64,000 nucleotides of DNA from Alphaproteobacteria bacterium. Lineage in GTDB: Bacteria > Pseudomonadota > Alphaproteobacteria > Rhizobiales > Rhizobiaceae. The stretch spans positions 1-64,000 of the forward strand of contig JAJRQF010000114.1 of NCBI GenBank assembly GCA_024280375.1, given 5' to 3'. A model generated the notes under the pieces. That model was given only the letters and a program-made list of their open reading frames with translations, did no database searches and was not told the DNA's origin. Position numbers and translations under genes: made by a program. Positions 56,027 through 64,000 of this stretch are shown here, piece by piece (within the stretch, counting starts at the first letter, position 1; each line of letters opens with the position of its first letter).

Positions 56027-56461
56027 TCAAGCAGCTTCAGGAATTGGTATTTCAATTTTGATGGGTACGTTGATTGCTTTATAGGCAGCTTCAATTTGGT
56101 CCAGGCGTGAATTGTGGTCGAGCCTAAATAGTCGATCAACGGTTTCCCGATTTTTTACCCCCATTCGACGCTGCAATTCTGCGCGTGAAATACCCAAGTT
56201 TCTCAAAGAAGCGTAAAGCCCCAATTTTAGTGCTGTCAGTGAAGATATTTCAATGAAACTACCAGAACTCTGGTCTTTTGAGGAAGGCAACGGAACATCT
56301 GTATTATCAAAAATTCGCGCTGCTATTGCTTCTTCAACCGCCTTTAAACCGTATTGGCTTGCATCATCAATATCTTCGCAAAATGTAGTCAATTCAGGGA
56401 AGTCTGGGCTTGTAATAAGCCAGCTGTTTCCATCTTTGCTAAAGTTTAACTCGTAGCGCAT
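56027..56461 (-). CDS. hicB: HicB family antitoxin
   Basis: A 144-residue antitoxin with the HicB partial RNase H-like domain (R-Y-E-L-N-F-S-K-D, S-P-D-F-P-E-L-T-T) and a C-terminal helix-turn-helix (S-R-A-E-L-Q-R-R-M-G-V, residues ~93-125) for operator binding. It sits four bases after hicA on the same strand, toxin first as is typical of hicAB. Convergent with the VOC-cupin gene, six bases between stops. Confidence 0.9.
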   Translation of the reverse strand: MRYELNFSKDGNSWLITSPDFPELTTFCEDIDDASQYGLKAVEEAIAARIFDNTDVPLPSSKDQSSGSFIEISSLTALKLGLYASLRNLGISRAELQRRMGVKNRETVDRLFRLDHNSRLDQIEAAYKAINVPIKIEIPIPEAA

Positions 56462-56465
56462 GTCA

Positions 56466-56657
56466 TTAACCTCTTAAGTCTAGGTCTTTTAAAATCTTGT
56501 TTACGAGACCTTTGCCAAGTTCCTTTTTATTGCCATGCATTGGCAATTGAGATTTTCGTCCAGCTCTGCGAACTGTCAAATGTCCACTTCCACCCCTGTG
56601 GTTTTCAAAGGTGCACCCATTTTTCTTTAGAAATTTTTTCAGCTCTTGAGCATTCAT
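56466..56657 (-). CDS. hicA: HicA family mRNA interferase toxin
   Basis: A 63-residue dsRBD-fold toxin. Catalytic histidine H26 in G-G-S-G-H-L-T-V; C-terminal K-K-E-L-G-K-G-L-V-N-K-I-L as in family members. Cleaves mRNA when not bound by HicB. No Shine-Dalgarno is seen; the upstream TTGACT and TTTAAT elements would place the 5' end at or near the start codon, so the message may be leaderless. Confidence 0.9.
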   Translation of the reverse strand: MNAQELKKFLKKNGCTFENHRGGSGHLTVRRAGRKSQLPMHGNKKELGKGLVNKILKDLDLRG

Positions 56658-56721: not shown

Positions 56722-58617
56722 TTACACCAACCCAACCTCTTTTGCATATTTGGTCGTTGTGTAAACGGGCACATTTTCGGTAAAGCCTTTTAGCGGAATT
56801 TTATCGACAAGATGCAGGTTCCGCGTGGTTTTTTCTTTAAAGCCAGGGCCAACAACCAGCGGTACTCCGACGGTTTTTGTGGCTGCCTCCAGCCTTGCCG
56901 CCATATTCATGGCGCTGCCGATGGCGGTATAGTCGAAGCGCAGGGATGAACCATAATTGCCAACTGTGCAGACGCCAGTTTCGAGCGCCGCACCAATTTG
57001 CAGCGGCGGCAGGCCGCGCTTCACCAGTTCGGGGTTTTTCGCATGTATTGAGGCAATAATGGCTTCAGCTGCTGCCAGCCCCTTATCGGCATGGTCAGGT
57101 TGGTCAATTGGTGCATTCCAGAAGGCAAGCACCGCGTCGCCCATAAATTTATCGACGGTGCCATCATACTTAAAAATTTGATCATTGGCGATGGAAAGCA
57201 GATGATTGATTAAATCAAACATCTGGTCCGCGGATAAATCCTGGGTGGTTGAGGTGAAATTCCGCATATCCATTAGCAAAACGGTGATTTCGCGCTTTTC
57301 GCCAGTTAACAATGCTTCGCTGTCCTGTTCCATAAGCTGTTTGACAACTGTTGGCGACATGAATTGTGAAAATTGCTGCACCAGAACTGACCGCCGCTGC
57401 TCGGTGGTTTTGTATAGCGAATAAGCTTCCATGGTGATGACCATAAACAGGCCAATCGCCGGCTGGACTGATTCATAGAGTTCACCCCACCAAAGATAGG
57501 CATTAAACCCTGCGATCAGTGGTGCGGACACGATCAATGTCACCAGCGGTATAGATAGAATGAAACTGCGAAATACAAATCTTGATGATAGAATTATCAA
57601 CAAAGCCGATACCAGAAACCAAAGTCGTTCAATCGGCAATCCGTTTTCAGGCTTGGATAAAAATGCGCCGACCAGCAACTGCTCCGCTATTAGCGCATGG
57701 ACCTCACTGCCCAGCCGTTGGGTTTTTGAAGGCGTGGTATGGAACTGATCCAGGCCGACCGCATTATTGGATATAATGACGATGGCATTTTTTAGCGTAG
57801 GTTCACGGCCACCGTCCAGTATTTTGAGTGCTGAAATTTTGGCAATGCCACCTTTGCGTTCCCAAAGAATTATTTGCCCCTGTGGCTGTAAGGGCAATAT
57901 GGCGGCACCAATTTTAAGCGCATCAAATCCATCGCCGCCCATGCGAACTGCATAATTTCCAGCACCCGCGTAGAGCCTTATAAGCTCCAGTGCAAATGAC
58001 GGCCACATTTGATAGCCCCCACCGGTCGATTGCAGCCAGACCAGCGGCAGCTCGCGCAAGACACCGTCTTTATCGGGAGTAGCGCGGATAATGCCAAGCG
58101 CTGATGCGCTCTGGTTGAACTTGGCAAGCGAGGCAATAACGCCGGTAAAACCGGGCAAGCTCTTCGGCACGATGCCAACAATGGAAGGGTCGGCTTTCGG
58201 ATGAATATTGGTGTTGGTAAACTCATTGCCTAGGCTGGCCGCCAGGACGGTGGGCATAATTCCAAGTGCTTTTGCCAGTTCATCATCGCCCTTAAGCCCG
58301 TTTGGTGCGGTATCTGGCTCTGGAAATAATAGATCCAGTCCGACAACCGCAGCACCCTGATCCTTTATGCCTTTTACCAGATCAGCGACCACGCTCCGGT
58401 TCCAGGGCCAGCGGCCATATTTGGCCAATGTTACATCGTCAATTACAACAAGCTTGATCGGGCTTTCGTTTTCGCTACCGGGGCGGGGGGCGAGGGTTTG
58501 GTAGGCGTCAAAAGTTTTGCCACGCAAATAGGAAAGCGGGTTTTCAAAAATTATATGGCCAGTAAACAGTAGCAGGGCCAATACAATAGGGGCGTAGCGA
58601 ATTCTCGAAAACCGCAT
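56722..58617 (-). CDS. CHASE2-domain adenylate cyclase
   Basis: A 631-residue membrane protein. N-terminal helix (11-28), an extracytoplasmic CHASE2 sensor (about 30-325), three helices (332-400), a short linker and a class III cyclase domain. Catalytic residues all present: metal D450 and D494, K489 and D562 for adenine, N571 and R575 for the transition state. It makes cAMP in response to an envelope cue. Last gene of a four-gene minus-strand operon, 10 bases after the acyltransferase gene. Confidence 0.92.
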   Translation of the reverse strand: MRFSRIRYAPIVLALLLFTGHIIFENPLSYLRGKTFDAYQTLAPRPGSENESPIKLVVIDDVTLAKYGRWPWNRSVVADLVKGIKDQGAAVVGLDLLFPEPDTAPNGLKGDDELAKALGIMPTVLAASLGNEFTNTNIHPKADPSIVGIVPKSLPGFTGVIASLAKFNQSASALGIIRATPDKDGVLRELPLVWLQSTGGGYQMWPSFALELIRLYAGAGNYAVRMGGDGFDALKIGAAILPLQPQGQIILWERKGGIAKISALKILDGGREPTLKNAIVIISNNAVGLDQFHTTPSKTQRLGSEVHALIAEQLLVGAFLSKPENGLPIERLWFLVSALLIILSSRFVFRSFILSIPLVTLIVSAPLIAGFNAYLWWGELYESVQPAIGLFMVITMEAYSLYKTTEQRRSVLVQQFSQFMSPTVVKQLMEQDSEALLTGEKREITVLLMDMRNFTSTTQDLSADQMFDLINHLLSIANDQIFKYDGTVDKFMGDAVLAFWNAPIDQPDHADKGLAAAEAIIASIHAKNPELVKRGLPPLQIGAALETGVCTVGNYGSSLRFDYTAIGSAMNMAARLEAATKTVGVPLVVGPGFKEKTTRNLHLVDKIPLKGFTENVPVYTTTKYAKEVGLV

Positions 58618-58627
58618 GGATCAGTTT

Positions 58628-59407
58628 CTACGTATCAAGAGCATCTGGGTCATTATTCGGGGCTGTGTCTGGTGTTGCAGGGGGCAGCAAGTTATCAGCA
58701 GTATCCACGCCGTTGAAATAGTCTTCGAGGAACTTATTGAAGGTTTCCTTGTTTTTAAAGCGAGGAAATTGGTGAAAAACTTCCAGTTCAATTTTGGCGT
58801 GGCGACGGCCTTTGGTGATGCCGATAAATGACCAGAATTGATCATAAATGCGATATTGACTTTTGCCCAACCCATCGACCTTCAGCAGAACAACCGGATG
58901 ATCTGGAAGCGCCTCGACCATGTCATAGGCGCCGGTAAGATAGGGAGGGATTTCTTCTTTTTCGCCCTTTCTAATACTCCCGGCAGGAAATATGAGAATC
59001 GAATTATCGTTCTGCAAAACCCGTTTCATAATATCGAGTGTTATAAGCTTTTGGGCCTCCCGGCGTTCAGGCGTCCAATCTTTTGGGCTGCTCATCGGAA
59101 TGGTGCCAAACAGCATCATGGGATATTTTTGTAGCCAGTGTTCATATTCAAGATAGTAGGCCGTTGGGCGAATTCGCGTCACCGTATAGAGCGATGTCAT
59201 TATCAAAGGTGGGTCGTTGCGGCTGACATGGTTTGCCAGTATAATTGCGCCGGTAAGGTCCTGCAATTGTTCCTTGTTGGAACAGCTGACATTGTAGAAT
59301 AAATCGTAATAGGGCCTGACAAGTGCAAAAACGAGATGCCGAAGAAGCTTACCAAAAATATTGTCTATAACTTTTACGCCACGTTTCTTGGCTGGTGGAT
59401 TTGTCAT
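58628..59407 (-). CDS. Lysophospholipid acyltransferase (PlsC family)
   Basis: A 259-residue 1-acyl-glycerol-3-phosphate acyltransferase-like enzyme. HX4D motif H60-V-S-R-N-D65, and the second motif P-A-G-S-I-R-K-G with Y-L-T-G-A-Y. Acts on membrane lipid precursors, but its placement within a FecR/CHASE2 operon and its divergence suggest a specialised lipid role. An imperfect inverted repeat (59412-59466) lies just upstream. Confidence 0.87.
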   Translation of the reverse strand: MTNPPAKKRGVKVIDNIFGKLLRHLVFALVRPYYDLFYNVSCSNKEQLQDLTGAIILANHVSRNDPPLIMTSLYTVTRIRPTAYYLEYEHWLQKYPMMLFGTIPMSSPKDWTPERREAQKLITLDIMKRVLQNDNSILIFPAGSIRKGEKEEIPPYLTGAYDMVEALPDHPVVLLKVDGLGKSQYRIYDQFWSFIGITKGRRHAKIELEVFHQFPRFKNKETFNKFLEDYFNGVDTADNLLPPATPDTAPNNDPDALDT

Positions 59408-59411
59408 GCGA

Positions 59412-59466
59412 CCCTTTCGGTATGTTTAATATTGTATGCAATCGGCCATATCATTATACCGAAGGG
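59412..59466 (-). promoter_or_regulatory. Imperfect inverted repeat before the acyltransferase gene
   Basis: CCCTTTCGGTAT (59412-59423) faces ATACCGAAGGG (59456-59466), 11 matches with one bulged T, separated by 32 bases. It could be an operator or an intercistronic mRNA structure between the fecR-domain and plsC-like genes. Confidence 0.5.
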
Positions 59467-59491
59467 ATCGGGGCAAAATTAATGTCAGATT

Positions 59492-60430
59492 CTATAGACA
59501 CGCAGCTGGAATTGGTGGAGCCGTTGGGCATGCCGTTGCTGTTGTTCCGGTAATTGCCGGGTCGGTTGCTGCAGCTATTGCCGCTGGGGTTGTTTGAGTG
59601 AGTGTTGGATTAACTACCGGTGTGGGGTTCTCGACGATGATTACCTCTTGCTGTTTTTGCGAACCAAGCGGAATAATAGGATTGTTTCTTCGTTCAGGAT
59701 CGCCGGTTAAACCTGGAAGCGAACCATTTGAGGATTTGCAAAAGCCTGTCGCATCCTTGCTGCCATCTATGCAATTTGCTCTTGCTCTCAAGCCTTGACC
59801 CTTGCGCCCGGGAATACCATTGCCGGCAACCATGTCGCGACTGTCCAGCAGGTCCATGTCATCATCTTTGGACATTTCAATTTTAAGAGTTTTACCGTCG
59901 GAAATACAGGCAAAGCCGGGCTTGGTTATGATACGTGTTTTGCCGTTAACACTACACGACATTCTGCCTGCCCGTAAAATTGATTTGGTGAAAGCCCTGG
60001 TTACTCTGGTATCTAAAATACCGCCGCGAATACCCAATACAATATGCGGTGTGGTGACCTGCATTTTTCCGGATTTTGAAATTTGCCCACCGTAAAACCG
60101 GACCAAACCACTGTTCATGTTAACCGCGACCTTACCCCTGTTTCTTCCCGGTTGATAAACAAATTCATCAATAACAAGTTTCGAGTTAGGTCCGATTTTT
60201 GCACTTGATTCGTCGGCAAATACTATCATGCCGAGCCCGGTTTTATTGCTCGATAGACTGTCGCCAAGTGATATTTTTGAGCCGACTGACAGATTTTTAC
60301 CATTGTTACCGGCAATTTGGGTCTGAAGAGCCGTCATGGTGCCGACAACTTCAGCAGATGCCAGATTTGGCATTACTGCCAAGGCAAAAACTGTGGATCC
60401 AATGAAGGCCAGATATTTGGGCATGTACAT
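59492..60430 (-). CDS. FecR-domain periplasmic protein
   Basis: A 312-residue exported protein. Signal peptide (M-P-K-Y-L-A-F ... A-S-A, cleavage before E-V-V). The FecR-like beta domain spans about 40-175 (V-G-S-K-I-S-L-G-D-S, S-S-A-K-I-G-P-N-S, R-G-K-V-A-V-N, T-P-H-I-V-L-G-I-R-G). A disordered Thr/Pro/Ala-rich tail (about 265-312) ends with two cysteines. FecR domains often pair with CHASE2 sensors; this one probably binds the outer-membrane protein next door or a ligand. RBS unclear. Confidence 0.85.
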   Translation of the reverse strand: MYMPKYLAFIGSTVFALAVMPNLASAEVVGTMTALQTQIAGNNGKNLSVGSKISLGDSLSSNKTGLGMIVFADESSAKIGPNSKLVIDEFVYQPGRNRGKVAVNMNSGLVRFYGGQISKSGKMQVTTPHIVLGIRGGILDTRVTRAFTKSILRAGRMSCSVNGKTRIITKPGFACISDGKTLKIEMSKDDDMDLLDSRDMVAGNGIPGRKGQGLRARANCIDGSKDATGFCKSSNGSLPGLTGDPERRNNPIIPLGSQKQQEVIIVENPTPVVNPTLTQTTPAAIAAATDPAITGTTATACPTAPPIPAACL

Positions 60431-60445
60431 GGTAATTTGCTCCAG

Positions 60446-61717
60446 TTAACGGAAAGTATAGGTGTAACTTAGTCCAACTCCGTAGGATGTCTGGTTGCGG
60501 CTTCGATCATCAAGTGTGAGCTGCCGGTAAAAAGAAGTTAGGTCGACCCGATTGGATTCATTGAGTTCAAACGTGTGATCCCAGCGTAATTGCCAAAAAT
60601 TTCCGTCAAAAGTGGTCCCGGGTGTAGCGTTTAAATCGGGCAGTTGAATATGACCGCCACCAATACTGGCGCGATGGGTCCAGCTAATACCGTCTGGTTT
60701 GGAAACTATCAAACCTGCATAACTGAACTCACCATCAACTGAGCGGCCAATAGAAGTGCCGCCATATGTATAATCGAATTGGGTTCTGATCGTTGCACCA
60801 ATCGCATGTGCCGCGCTTAGCCGATAGGCACCGCCCGCCTGGGCCCGAACGCGGTAATCTGTAAATAACAGATCGGAGGCGGAAAGGTCAGCAAGGCCGA
60901 AATTGGCAAAAACCGTAGTGTCGACCGTCGGCTGTACGGTGAATTTGGAAAAAATACCATATTCCTGAATAGCGGCGTTCTTTTGGAAGCTGTTATAATC
61001 TCCATAGAGTGACAGCGACATGCGTAATGAGGAAATTCCCGAATTCGGCAGGCCTTTTTCCCAGGATAGGCTCAAGCGGCCCGAAGGTGCAGTAAAAACT
61101 CCACCGCCGCCGCTGAGATCAAAATCGCCGAACAGGCGGGATGCCCGGGCCCGGATTGAAATCATGATCGCATCGTCGGTGGGCGTTTCTAGGTTACGGC
61201 GCAGAACCCCGTAAATTTCTCCATAGGGATTAAAATCTGTCCGGTCTGAAATGGCCGCTGAGCTGGAAAAGTTGGTCTGGATGACATCAGCACCCGCAGT
61301 AAACGAAATGTAGCCGCTAACGCCGCCGATGTTTTTGCCGATTCGCTCGCGGAGCTTTTCAGCTTGCCCAATTTCCCTGAGGTTGAGCGTTCCAATTTCA
61401 AGAGCGTATTCAATCTGGCGCAAAGCAAGGTCATAGGACCCCACATGATTGTACAAGCGACCGGCGACCAATCTGGCCTGTGCATCACGGGGAAAGGTGA
61501 TTAAATGCTGCTCGATTGTGGAAAGCGCCTGGTCGTACTGGCCAGCTTCAACAGCAATGTTGATAAATTCTGTAAGACTTCCCGGATCACGTGGATTTGC
61601 AATGCGATTGGCAAACGAGTCCTGGTATGCGGAAGCAAAGGCCGAGCTTATCCCGATTGTCAGCAAAGAAGTGCCAACAATCGTGGCTAATATGCTCCTA
61701 TAAAAATTGCTTTGCAT
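60446..61717 (-). CDS. TPR-plus-beta-barrel outer membrane protein
   Basis: A ~423-residue exported protein. Signal peptide 1-29 (S-A-F-A-S-A). About 30-140 contain two or three TPR motifs (A-G-Q-Y-D-Q-A-L-S-T-I-E-Q-H, A-R-L-V-A-G-R-L-Y-N-H-V-G). The remainder is an alternating beta-strand sequence ending Y-T-Y-T-F-R, typical of an outer membrane barrel. ATG 61717 is preferred to TTG 61735. First gene of the operon; FecR follows after 15 bases. Upstream 61736-62009 is probably its promoter region. Confidence 0.82.
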   Translation of the reverse strand: MQSNFYRSILATIVGTSLLTIGISSAFASAYQDSFANRIANPRDPGSLTEFINIAVEAGQYDQALSTIEQHLITFPRDAQARLVAGRLYNHVGSYDLALRQIEYALEIGTLNLREIGQAEKLRERIGKNIGGVSGYISFTAGADVIQTNFSSSAAISDRTDFNPYGEIYGVLRRNLETPTDDAIMISIRARASRLFGDFDLSGGGGVFTAPSGRLSLSWEKGLPNSGISSLRMSLSLYGDYNSFQKNAAIQEYGIFSKFTVQPTVDTTVFANFGLADLSASDLLFTDYRVRAQAGGAYRLSAAHAIGATIRTQFDYTYGGTSIGRSVDGEFSYAGLIVSKPDGISWTHRASIGGGHIQLPDLNATPGTTFDGNFWQLRWDHTFELNESNRVDLTSFYRQLTLDDRSRNQTSYGVGLSYTYTFR

Positions 61718-62009
61718 TATAAAAAAACCCAACAAACCCCAGCTGGAACCAATTAATAATTAGTTCCTGTATTCTTTTAATATATTTGTAACTAATTTGG
61801 TAGTGTGTTCATGGTTTTTGCAGCCCTTAGGTTAATACCTGTGTTAATTTTGTCATAGTGTGAATATGGCCTCAAAATCTTGAACCTGATATGCGTTTTT
61901 GCACGCGTCAGTTGGCGAATAGATTTTTACCAGAATTTTGGAAAAGATGGTTCACATATGGGGTGAAATCATTTAAGTTTCATTTGCAACTAAATTTAAG
62001 GTTTTAAGC

Positions 62010-62960
62010 ATGGCAAAGAAATTCGCGTCTCAGGCAGATATGGACGAGAAAGAGATTTCATTTACTGAAATTGGTAAAGATTTATGGGCCTTTACCGCCG
62101 AGGGTGATCCCAATACCGGGGTGATTATTGGCGATGATAGCGTGATGATTATTGATGCGCAGGCAACGCCACGGCTTGCCAATGTGGTGATCGAAAAAAT
62201 CCGGGGCGTGACCGATAAGCCGATCAAGCATGTGGTTTTATCGCATTATCATGCGGTACGGGTGCTTGGGGCATCTGCTTATAATGCGCCAGAAATTATC
62301 ATGTCTGAAAAAGCCCGTTCGATGGTGGTTGAACGCGGCCAAGAGGACTGGGATAGCGAATTTGAGCGTTTTCCGCGGTTGTTTCAAGGTCACGAATCCA
62401 TTCCGGGGCTTACCTGGCCAACCACAACTTTCAACGACCGTATGAGCGTTTATCTGGGTAATCGACGGGTCGATTTGATGTTTATGGGCAGGGCACATAC
62501 GGCCGGCGATATCGTTGCCTATGTGGGTGATGAAAATGTCATGTTTACCGGTGATATCGTTGAGTATAAATCGGCCTGCTATTGCGGCGATGGGCATTTT
62601 CATGATTGGCCTGATACTTTGAATGAAATTCGAGCATGGGAAGTGGATGCCATTGCGCCGGGGCGCGGTGATGCGCTGGTTGGGCGAAAAATGGTCAATG
62701 CAGCGCTGGATTCGACCGAAGATTTTGTCACCACGACCTATAAATCGGTGGCCCGTGTGGCTCTTAGAGGCGGTTCGTTGAAAGAAGCATGGGATGCATG
62801 CCGCGAGGTCTGTGATCCGAAATTTGGCGATTACGCGATCTATGAGCATTGCCTGCCGTTCAATGTTTCGCGTGCCTATGATGAGGCCCGCGATATGGAC
62901 ACACCAAAAATCTGGACGGCGGCGCGAGATATTGAAATGTGGGAGGCTTTGCAGAGCTAG
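62010..62960 (+). CDS. MBL-fold hydrolase with altered metal motif
   Basis: A 316-residue metallo-beta-lactamase-fold protein. The HxHxDH motif reads H-Y-H-A-V-R, so the Asp and third His are missing. Later motifs are H in G-R-A-H-T-A-G-D and D in F-T-G-D-I-V; the last usual His region reads A-P-G-R-G-D. One or both metal sites are therefore probably altered. S-H-Y-H-A-V-R-V-L-G-A is, from memory, a conserved form in Hyphomicrobiales. Substrate unknown. A small membrane protein starts immediately after its stop. Confidence 0.83.
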   Translation: MAKKFASQADMDEKEISFTEIGKDLWAFTAEGDPNTGVIIGDDSVMIIDAQATPRLANVVIEKIRGVTDKPIKHVVLSHYHAVRVLGASAYNAPEIIMSEKARSMVVERGQEDWDSEFERFPRLFQGHESIPGLTWPTTTFNDRMSVYLGNRRVDLMFMGRAHTAGDIVAYVGDENVMFTGDIVEYKSACYCGDGHFHDWPDTLNEIRAWEVDAIAPGRGDALVGRKMVNAALDSTEDFVTTTYKSVARVALRGGSLKEAWDACREVCDPKFGDYAIYEHCLPFNVSRAYDEARDMDTPKIWTAARDIEMWEALQS

Positions 62961-63310: not shown

Positions 63311-63688
63311 CTAAATTACTACCACATCATAAAGGCGGATGTTTTTATCCATGGTCATGATTGTTAAATTTTCCATTTGCGCCTGCGCCACCAACATTCG
63401 GTCAAATGGATCGCGGTGATGATGGGGCAGGTGGGAGACCGCGAGCGCGTGTTCTGGGAGGATAGGTAAGATGGAGATATCGCTGTTTTCAATATCCTTT
63501 AGCAAACCTGGGGGCATTATCAGTTTGCCAATACCAATTTTAATGGCAATTTCCCAAATCGAGACAATGCTTATGAACTTATTGACATCGCCTGTCATTA
63601 ACCGAAAGTGCCGTTCTTTCAGTTTGTTGTCGTCATTCAAATCCCAGAGCAAGATATGAGTATCAATCAGATAACCAGTATCACTCAC
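63311..63688 (-). CDS. PIN-domain (VapC-like) toxin
   Basis: A 125-residue PIN ribonuclease. N-terminal acid in Y-L-I-D-T-H-I-L-L-W (D9), middle I-V-S-I-W-E-I-A-I-K, and later D-P-F-D-R-M-L-V-A-Q-A and T-M-D-K-N, giving the usual acidic quartet. Probably cleaves tRNA or rRNA. Its ATG overlaps the antitoxin stop by four bases (ATGA). Confidence 0.9.
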   Translation of the reverse strand: MSDTGYLIDTHILLWDLNDDNKLKERHFRLMTGDVNKFISIVSIWEIAIKIGIGKLIMPPGLLKDIENSDISILPILPEHALAVSHLPHHHRDPFDRMLVAQAQMENLTIMTMDKNIRLYDVVVI

Positions 63689-63909
63689 TTGATGTATTCA
63701 TCCCATTCAGGGCCCAGCTCATCAAAGTCATCCGCCATCCAAATTTTACCCTTCATGGCTCCATGCAAGGATTTCTTCTTCGCCGGTTTTTCGGCAATGA
63801 TTTTCACATATGGCTTGCCGTGCTTGGTGATCGCTATTTCCTCTCCATTCGCTGCTTTGCGAAGGATTTCGGAAACATTGGCTTTCATTTCAGCGACGGT
63901 GATGTTCAT
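63685..63909 (-). CDS. Phd/YefM family antitoxin
   Basis: A 74-residue antitoxin. N-terminal M-N-I-T-V-A-E-M-K-A-N-V-S-E-I-L and I-A-I-T-K-H-G-K-P match Phd/YefM DNA-binding folds; the C-terminal part D-D-F-D-E-L-G-P-E-W is the toxin-binding tail. ATG 63909 with GGAGCC is chosen over the longer frame to 63987. Partner of the PIN toxin. Confidence 0.88.
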   Translation of the reverse strand: MNITVAEMKANVSEILRKAANGEEIAITKHGKPYVKIIAEKPAKKKSLHGAMKGKIWMADDFDELGPEWDEYIK

Positions 63910-63979
63910 GACAGGCTCCAGTTCTGGCCATAATATAGGCCATAATTTGGGTATTTGCAAGTTTAAGGCGGGATAGAAA

Positions 63980-64000
63980 ATGCCCAAAATCTTTGAAACG
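63980..64000 (+). CDS. Possible start of a gene cut by the window end
   Basis: An ATG at 63980 (M-P-K-I-F-E-T...) follows GGCGGGATAG and stays open to the last base. Only seven codons are visible, so the product cannot be judged. Confidence 0.3.

Follow-up and report, generated by a model that had tools for sequence, protein, structure and literature searches.

The closest described counterpart of the locus analyzed here is the NsrA-CyaK system (and CyaD1/D2) of Sinorhizobium meliloti. NsrA is an outer-membrane protein whose barrel comprises residues 600-1200; it is necessary for CyaK-dependent cAMP signalling, and the cAMP output of CyaK acts on Clr (PMC7529298, PMC10463352). In the S. meliloti annotation, nsrA lies directly upstream of cyaK, and Pfam searches found FecR (57.2 bits) and TPR matches in NsrA and CHASE2 and cyclase domains in CyaK. 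A CHASE2-cyclase/phosphodiesterase/FecR/TPR cluster has been described in Campylobacterota, where no acyltransferase was reported (PMC9239204). The BiofilmReg operon of Burkholderia places a FecR-LysM protein beside a CHASE2 histidine kinase and has a two-component output, with no barrel reported; the factors recognized by CHASE2 were called unknown (PMC5192318). In magnetotactic bacteria, the gene of the exported TPR protein MtxA (Ig-like and TPR domains; no barrel reported, FecR not mentioned) is followed by a CHASE2-cyclase gene (PMC4439547). Slam/DUF560 (type XI) proteins consist of an N-terminal TPR block and a 14-strand barrel and have TbpBBD as cargo partner (PMC8406197). FecA-FecR and PupB-PupR combine a FecR/PupR-like periplasmic domain with an outer-membrane barrel.

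The window (the whole stretch of 64,000 nt that was analyzed) carries four tightly ordered minus-strand genes (Table 1), separated by 15 bp (barrel to FecR), 84 bp (FecR to PlsC-like) and 10 bp (PlsC-like to cyclase). The sequence-only reading had named these genes correctly: open reading frame coordinates, Pfam matches and the AlphaFold model of the barrel agreed. Like NsrA-CyaK, the locus links FecR, TPR and an outer-membrane barrel to a CHASE2 cyclase lying downstream. It differs in that NsrA is a single polypeptide of 1200 aa, whereas barrel and FecR are separate proteins in the window, and in its acyltransferase gene, which NsrA-CyaK lacks. The locus has the CHASE2 cyclase, FecR and TPR proteins of the Campylobacterota cluster without its phosphodiesterase gene, the FecR-CHASE2 receptor pairing of BiofilmReg, and the order of exported TPR protein and CHASE2 cyclase seen with MtxA. 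The window barrel has the layout of Slam/DUF560 proteins, but FecR and CHASE2 genes as its neighbours. Unlike FecA-FecR and PupB-PupR, the locus has neither a sigma factor nor an anti-sigma region; its FecR protein is secreted, and the partner would be CHASE2. The function of the operon had been called undescribed, a claim overtaken by the published NsrA-CyaK relay and Campylobacterota cluster (PMC7529298, PMC10463352, PMC9239204). The relay itself is already known; the split-gene layout and the genus-only acyltransferase gene set the window apart.

Table 1. Features of the operon and its flanks (positions in the window).
Feature	Position	Strand	Remarks
TPR + 14-strand beta-barrel outer-membrane protein	60446..61717	minus	423 aa, signal peptide
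Secreted periplasmic FecR-domain protein	59492..60430	minus	312 aa; Pfam FecR; disordered tail ending Cys-Leu
PlsC-like acyltransferase	58628..59407	minus	259 aa; Pfam Acyltransferase; genus-restricted accessory gene
CHASE2 class III adenylate cyclase	56722..58617	minus	631 aa; CHASE2 + catalytic domain
FecR tail	59492..59560	minus	Cys-Leu end and another Cys upstream in 4/4 genus members
Palindrome GGAACTAATTATTAATTGGTTCC + T-rich stretch	61740..61775	minus	just ahead of barrel start; outer stem kept in G003, not in G002
HicA toxin	56466..56657	minus	Pfam 43.8 bits; directly downstream of cyclase
Probable HicB-like partner	56027..56461	minus	follows HicA; no Pfam match
Metallo-beta-lactamase-fold gene	62010..62960	plus	divergent from operon; kept in G001, G002, G003
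PIN-domain protein (probable toxin)	63311..63688	minus	
Probable antitoxin gene	63685..63987	minus	upstream of PIN-domain gene

The cyclase matched CHASE2 with 151.3 bits (cut-off 26.3) and Guanylate_cyc with 31.5 bits (cut-off 21.9). Its architecture comprises an N-terminal transmembrane segment, a periplasmic CHASE2 domain (residues 22-342), C-terminal transmembrane segments and a catalytic domain (437-620), the transmembrane positions being assigned by eye. D450, D494, K490, D562, N571 and R575 occupy the class III metal, adenine-specifying and transition-state positions; all six aligned to CyaB (PDB 3r5g), in an alignment unbroken at these residues, so that the complete active site claimed earlier was confirmed. 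With this domain order and these catalytic residues, the protein is a CHASE2 class III adenylate cyclase, predicted from its sequence to make cAMP. Along its full length it shares 29% identity with S. meliloti CyaK, and a 97% identical cyclase was found in a Rhizobiaceae metagenome-assembled genome (MAG). Seven cNMP-binding proteins are encoded in the window's own genome (G000), and its contig C31 (13980-18633) combines one cNMP-binding protein with two class III cyclase matches inside 5 kb.

The FecR-domain protein begins with a signal peptide, as read from its sequence, and matched Pfam FecR with 27.9 bits (cut-off 24); no further domain was matched. Its domain (approximately residues 28-190) was well modelled, and the C-terminal third was disordered. 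The best solved matches of the model were 4m0h (a FecR-like putative anti-sigma factor) and 6ovk (the PupR cell-surface-signalling domain). No sigma-factor gene was recognized among the adjacent ORFs, and the protein does not have the features of a FecR anti-sigma regulator. C-termini of relatives read DCFPDCR (L054) and PPDCQPYCN (G040), and such Cys pairs in FecR tails suggest a C-terminal disulfide.

In the barrel protein, TPR matches fell under the Pfam cut-offs (E 4e-6). Its AlphaFold model (mean pLDDT 80, pTM 0.63) consisted of an N-terminal helical TPR-like block followed by 14 beta-strands. Among the best solved Foldseek matches were two TPR-barrel exporters, BcsC and PelB, and two barrels, OmpG and CymA. 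In the viral contigs searched, the barrel had no relative.

Within the genus, two other members (G002 and G003) kept the barrel-FecR-PlsC-cyclase order intact, and in the fourth (G001) the contig stops within plsC. In the comparison where dN/dS was reliably measurable (G000 vs. G003), omega was 0.06-0.14 for all four genes, that is, purifying selection. The Rfam search of the window gave no match, and promoter and terminator scans stayed at chance level. Two CRP-type matches (two mismatches each) upstream of the barrel gene were rejected, the window holding 21 such sites with 22.7 expected by chance. A hairpin before plsC was also rejected (z -1.7; not conserved in G002).

The sequence-only reading had proposed gene-neighbourhood statistics as a check, and these came out in favor of linkage. 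In 61 relatives spanning genus, family and order, there were 70 FecR and 61 CHASE2 matches; antisense ORFs of cyclases were excluded from the iterated FecR profile. FecR lay within 10 kb of 39 of the 61 CHASE2 genes vs. 0.36 expected, an approximate expectation that assumes uniform placement and approximately 4.1 Mb per genome, with related genomes not being independent. For the remaining 22 CHASE2 genes, FecR was not matched inside 10 kb (some of their contigs end early, and at least one FecR fell below threshold); therefore, FecR is not universal beside CHASE2. The barrel alignment search returned 17 loci at E ≤ 1e-20. FecR adjoined the barrel in all 17, and CHASE2 lay within 10 kb in 13; of the others, two were on contigs without a CHASE2 match and two had CHASE2 on the same contig more than 70 kb away. 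Around CHASE2 cyclases in 80 named loci, many of which end early, FecR was in the flanks of 48 and barrel plus FecR in 16. These loci ranged over Rhizobium, Tardiphaga, Thalassospira, Sphingomonadaceae, Reyranella and records labelled Elusimicrobia and Omnitrophus, labels that may reflect contamination. Three of the four genes (barrel, FecR and CHASE2 cyclase) form a conserved module.

A second set occurs in the window's own genome on contig C51 (L033), with a barrel of 462 aa, a FecR protein of 990 aa and a CHASE2 cyclase of 753 aa, without PlsC. A transposase with an rve integrase core lies near it (L033:15257-16117). For all three proteins, the window set was closer to those of G016 and L054 than to this paralogue; thus, the sets descend as units. 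Over 16 sets, protein distances were correlated between barrel and FecR (r = 0.95) and between FecR and CHASE2 (r = 0.81; partial r = 0.58 once the distances of the catalytic domain were removed). Shared ancestry explains part of this correlated divergence.

Fused forms were also found. Approximately 10 relatives carry a FecR ORF of approximately 1200 aa adjoining CHASE2. The fusion in G018 (1229 aa) has a long C-terminal part besides FecR and TPRs, and its gene overlaps a CHASE2 cyclase gene. Over 98% of its length, this protein shares 53% identity with S. meliloti pSymB proteins, one of which is the annotated nsrA. Profile comparison of the window with NsrA supported homology of the FecR part. 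Between the two barrels there was no significant sequence match, and hhalign aligned the TPR stretch alone, weakly. Because barrel and FecR are encoded by two genes and the alignment covers the TPR stretch only, the window system is not an NsrA orthologue, although it would act in the NsrA-CyaK manner.

The locus is probably a split-gene relay of the NsrA-CyaK type. The trans-envelope relay proposed earlier holds up as the best reading on linkage, co-divergence, fusions and the NsrA-CyaK precedent, except for the acyltransferase as one of its parts. We infer the following course, which covers the FecR-barrel and FecR-CHASE2 contacts, the signal direction, the cAMP output here and any PlsC role. 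The outer-membrane TPR-barrel would detect either an external ligand or the state of its own envelope, and its periplasmic TPR face would pair with the secreted FecR protein, which would contact the inner-membrane cyclase at its CHASE2 domain. Rearrangement of the cyclase dimer would change cAMP synthesis, to which one or more of the cNMP-binding proteins of the genome may respond. The PlsC-like enzyme would possibly have an envelope-lipid function under the promoter of the operon.

Alternatively, the barrel could be a Slam/DUF560-like (type XI) translocon with FecR as cargo or partner, in which case the cyclase would monitor export or surface assembly and not a soluble ligand. The TPR and 14-strand barrel layout is that of DUF560 (PMC8406197), FecR adjoins every strong barrel homologue, and one homologue (L123) scored 34.1 bits for SlipAM (cut-off 22), with several others matching SlipAM/TPR_Slam weakly. 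Moreover, the FecR profile matched 5ix9, the anchoring domain of an RTX antifreeze adhesin, and several FecR ORFs beside other CHASE2 cyclases are adhesin-like, with FecR at the N-terminus followed by cadherin, Ig-like, laminin-G or RTX domains. However, SlipAM had no match at E ≤ 1 in the window barrel by profile search, DUF560 cargo carries TbpBBD (PMC8406197) whereas the window protein has FecR as its single domain match, and NsrA-type fusions carry FecR on the same chain as the barrel, so that a cargo role is not required. We consider the translocon explanation unlikely.

The acyltransferase could be a working part of the relay, for example by lipid remodelling around the cyclase or by acylating a component. 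Its gene adjoins FecR in 4/4 genus genomes and, in the window, lies 10 bp from the cyclase gene. The protein matched Pfam Acyltransferase with 41.9 bits (cut-off 23) and retains HX4D (HVSRND), with FPAGS in motif III replacing the usual FPEGT. Its omega was 0.06 (G000 vs. G003), and because of this purifying selection the enzyme is probably functional, although accessory. Against a part in the relay, the closest operons (G016 and L054, both three-gene), the paralogous set of this genome and the other linked loci scanned all lack the gene. It is absent in relatives with 41-48% cyclase identity, and the three-gene operon without PlsC in a Mesorhizobium MAG has gaps of 11 and 15 bp. High-identity relatives of PlsC occurred in the four genus members only (61 relatives), and among 385 class genomes the window's own was the single one with a match at E ≤ 1e-10. 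In G058, a PlsC-like gene close to a TPR-barrel was rejected as an ordinary EGTR-type enzyme whose neighbours look like phospholipid synthesis; that genome had no CHASE2 or FecR match. The place in the relay that had been given to the acyltransferase is not upheld, the gene being confined to this genus, and we regard such a part as improbable. In the preferred reading, this genus acquired the gene as an accessory that is probably co-transcribed, and the enzyme is no relay component.

The least probable explanation, that the operon members share transcription alone and the cyclase is regulated via CHASE2 only, is in line with the CHASE2 genes without a detected FecR neighbour, but linkage that extends over many families, the natural fusions adjoining CHASE2 cyclases and the published nsrA requirement for CyaK (PMC10463352) make it very unlikely.

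Because FecR is the element common to barrel, fused and adhesin forms, we raise tentatively that very different surface modules may all signal to CHASE2 cyclases through FecR as their shared periplasmic adaptor. The modules would be the Slam-like TPR-barrel of the window, the fused FecR-TPR-barrel of NsrA, and cadherin/RTX adhesins with a periplasmic N-terminal FecR-like domain; the window barrel would then be a Slam-type translocon turned receptor. The comparison joins NsrA-CyaK, the Campylobacterota cluster and BiofilmReg through their common FecR-CHASE2 pairing. With the genes split, FecR and barrel can be removed or swapped separately, which is impossible with the fused NsrA, and the adaptor role of FecR thus becomes directly testable.
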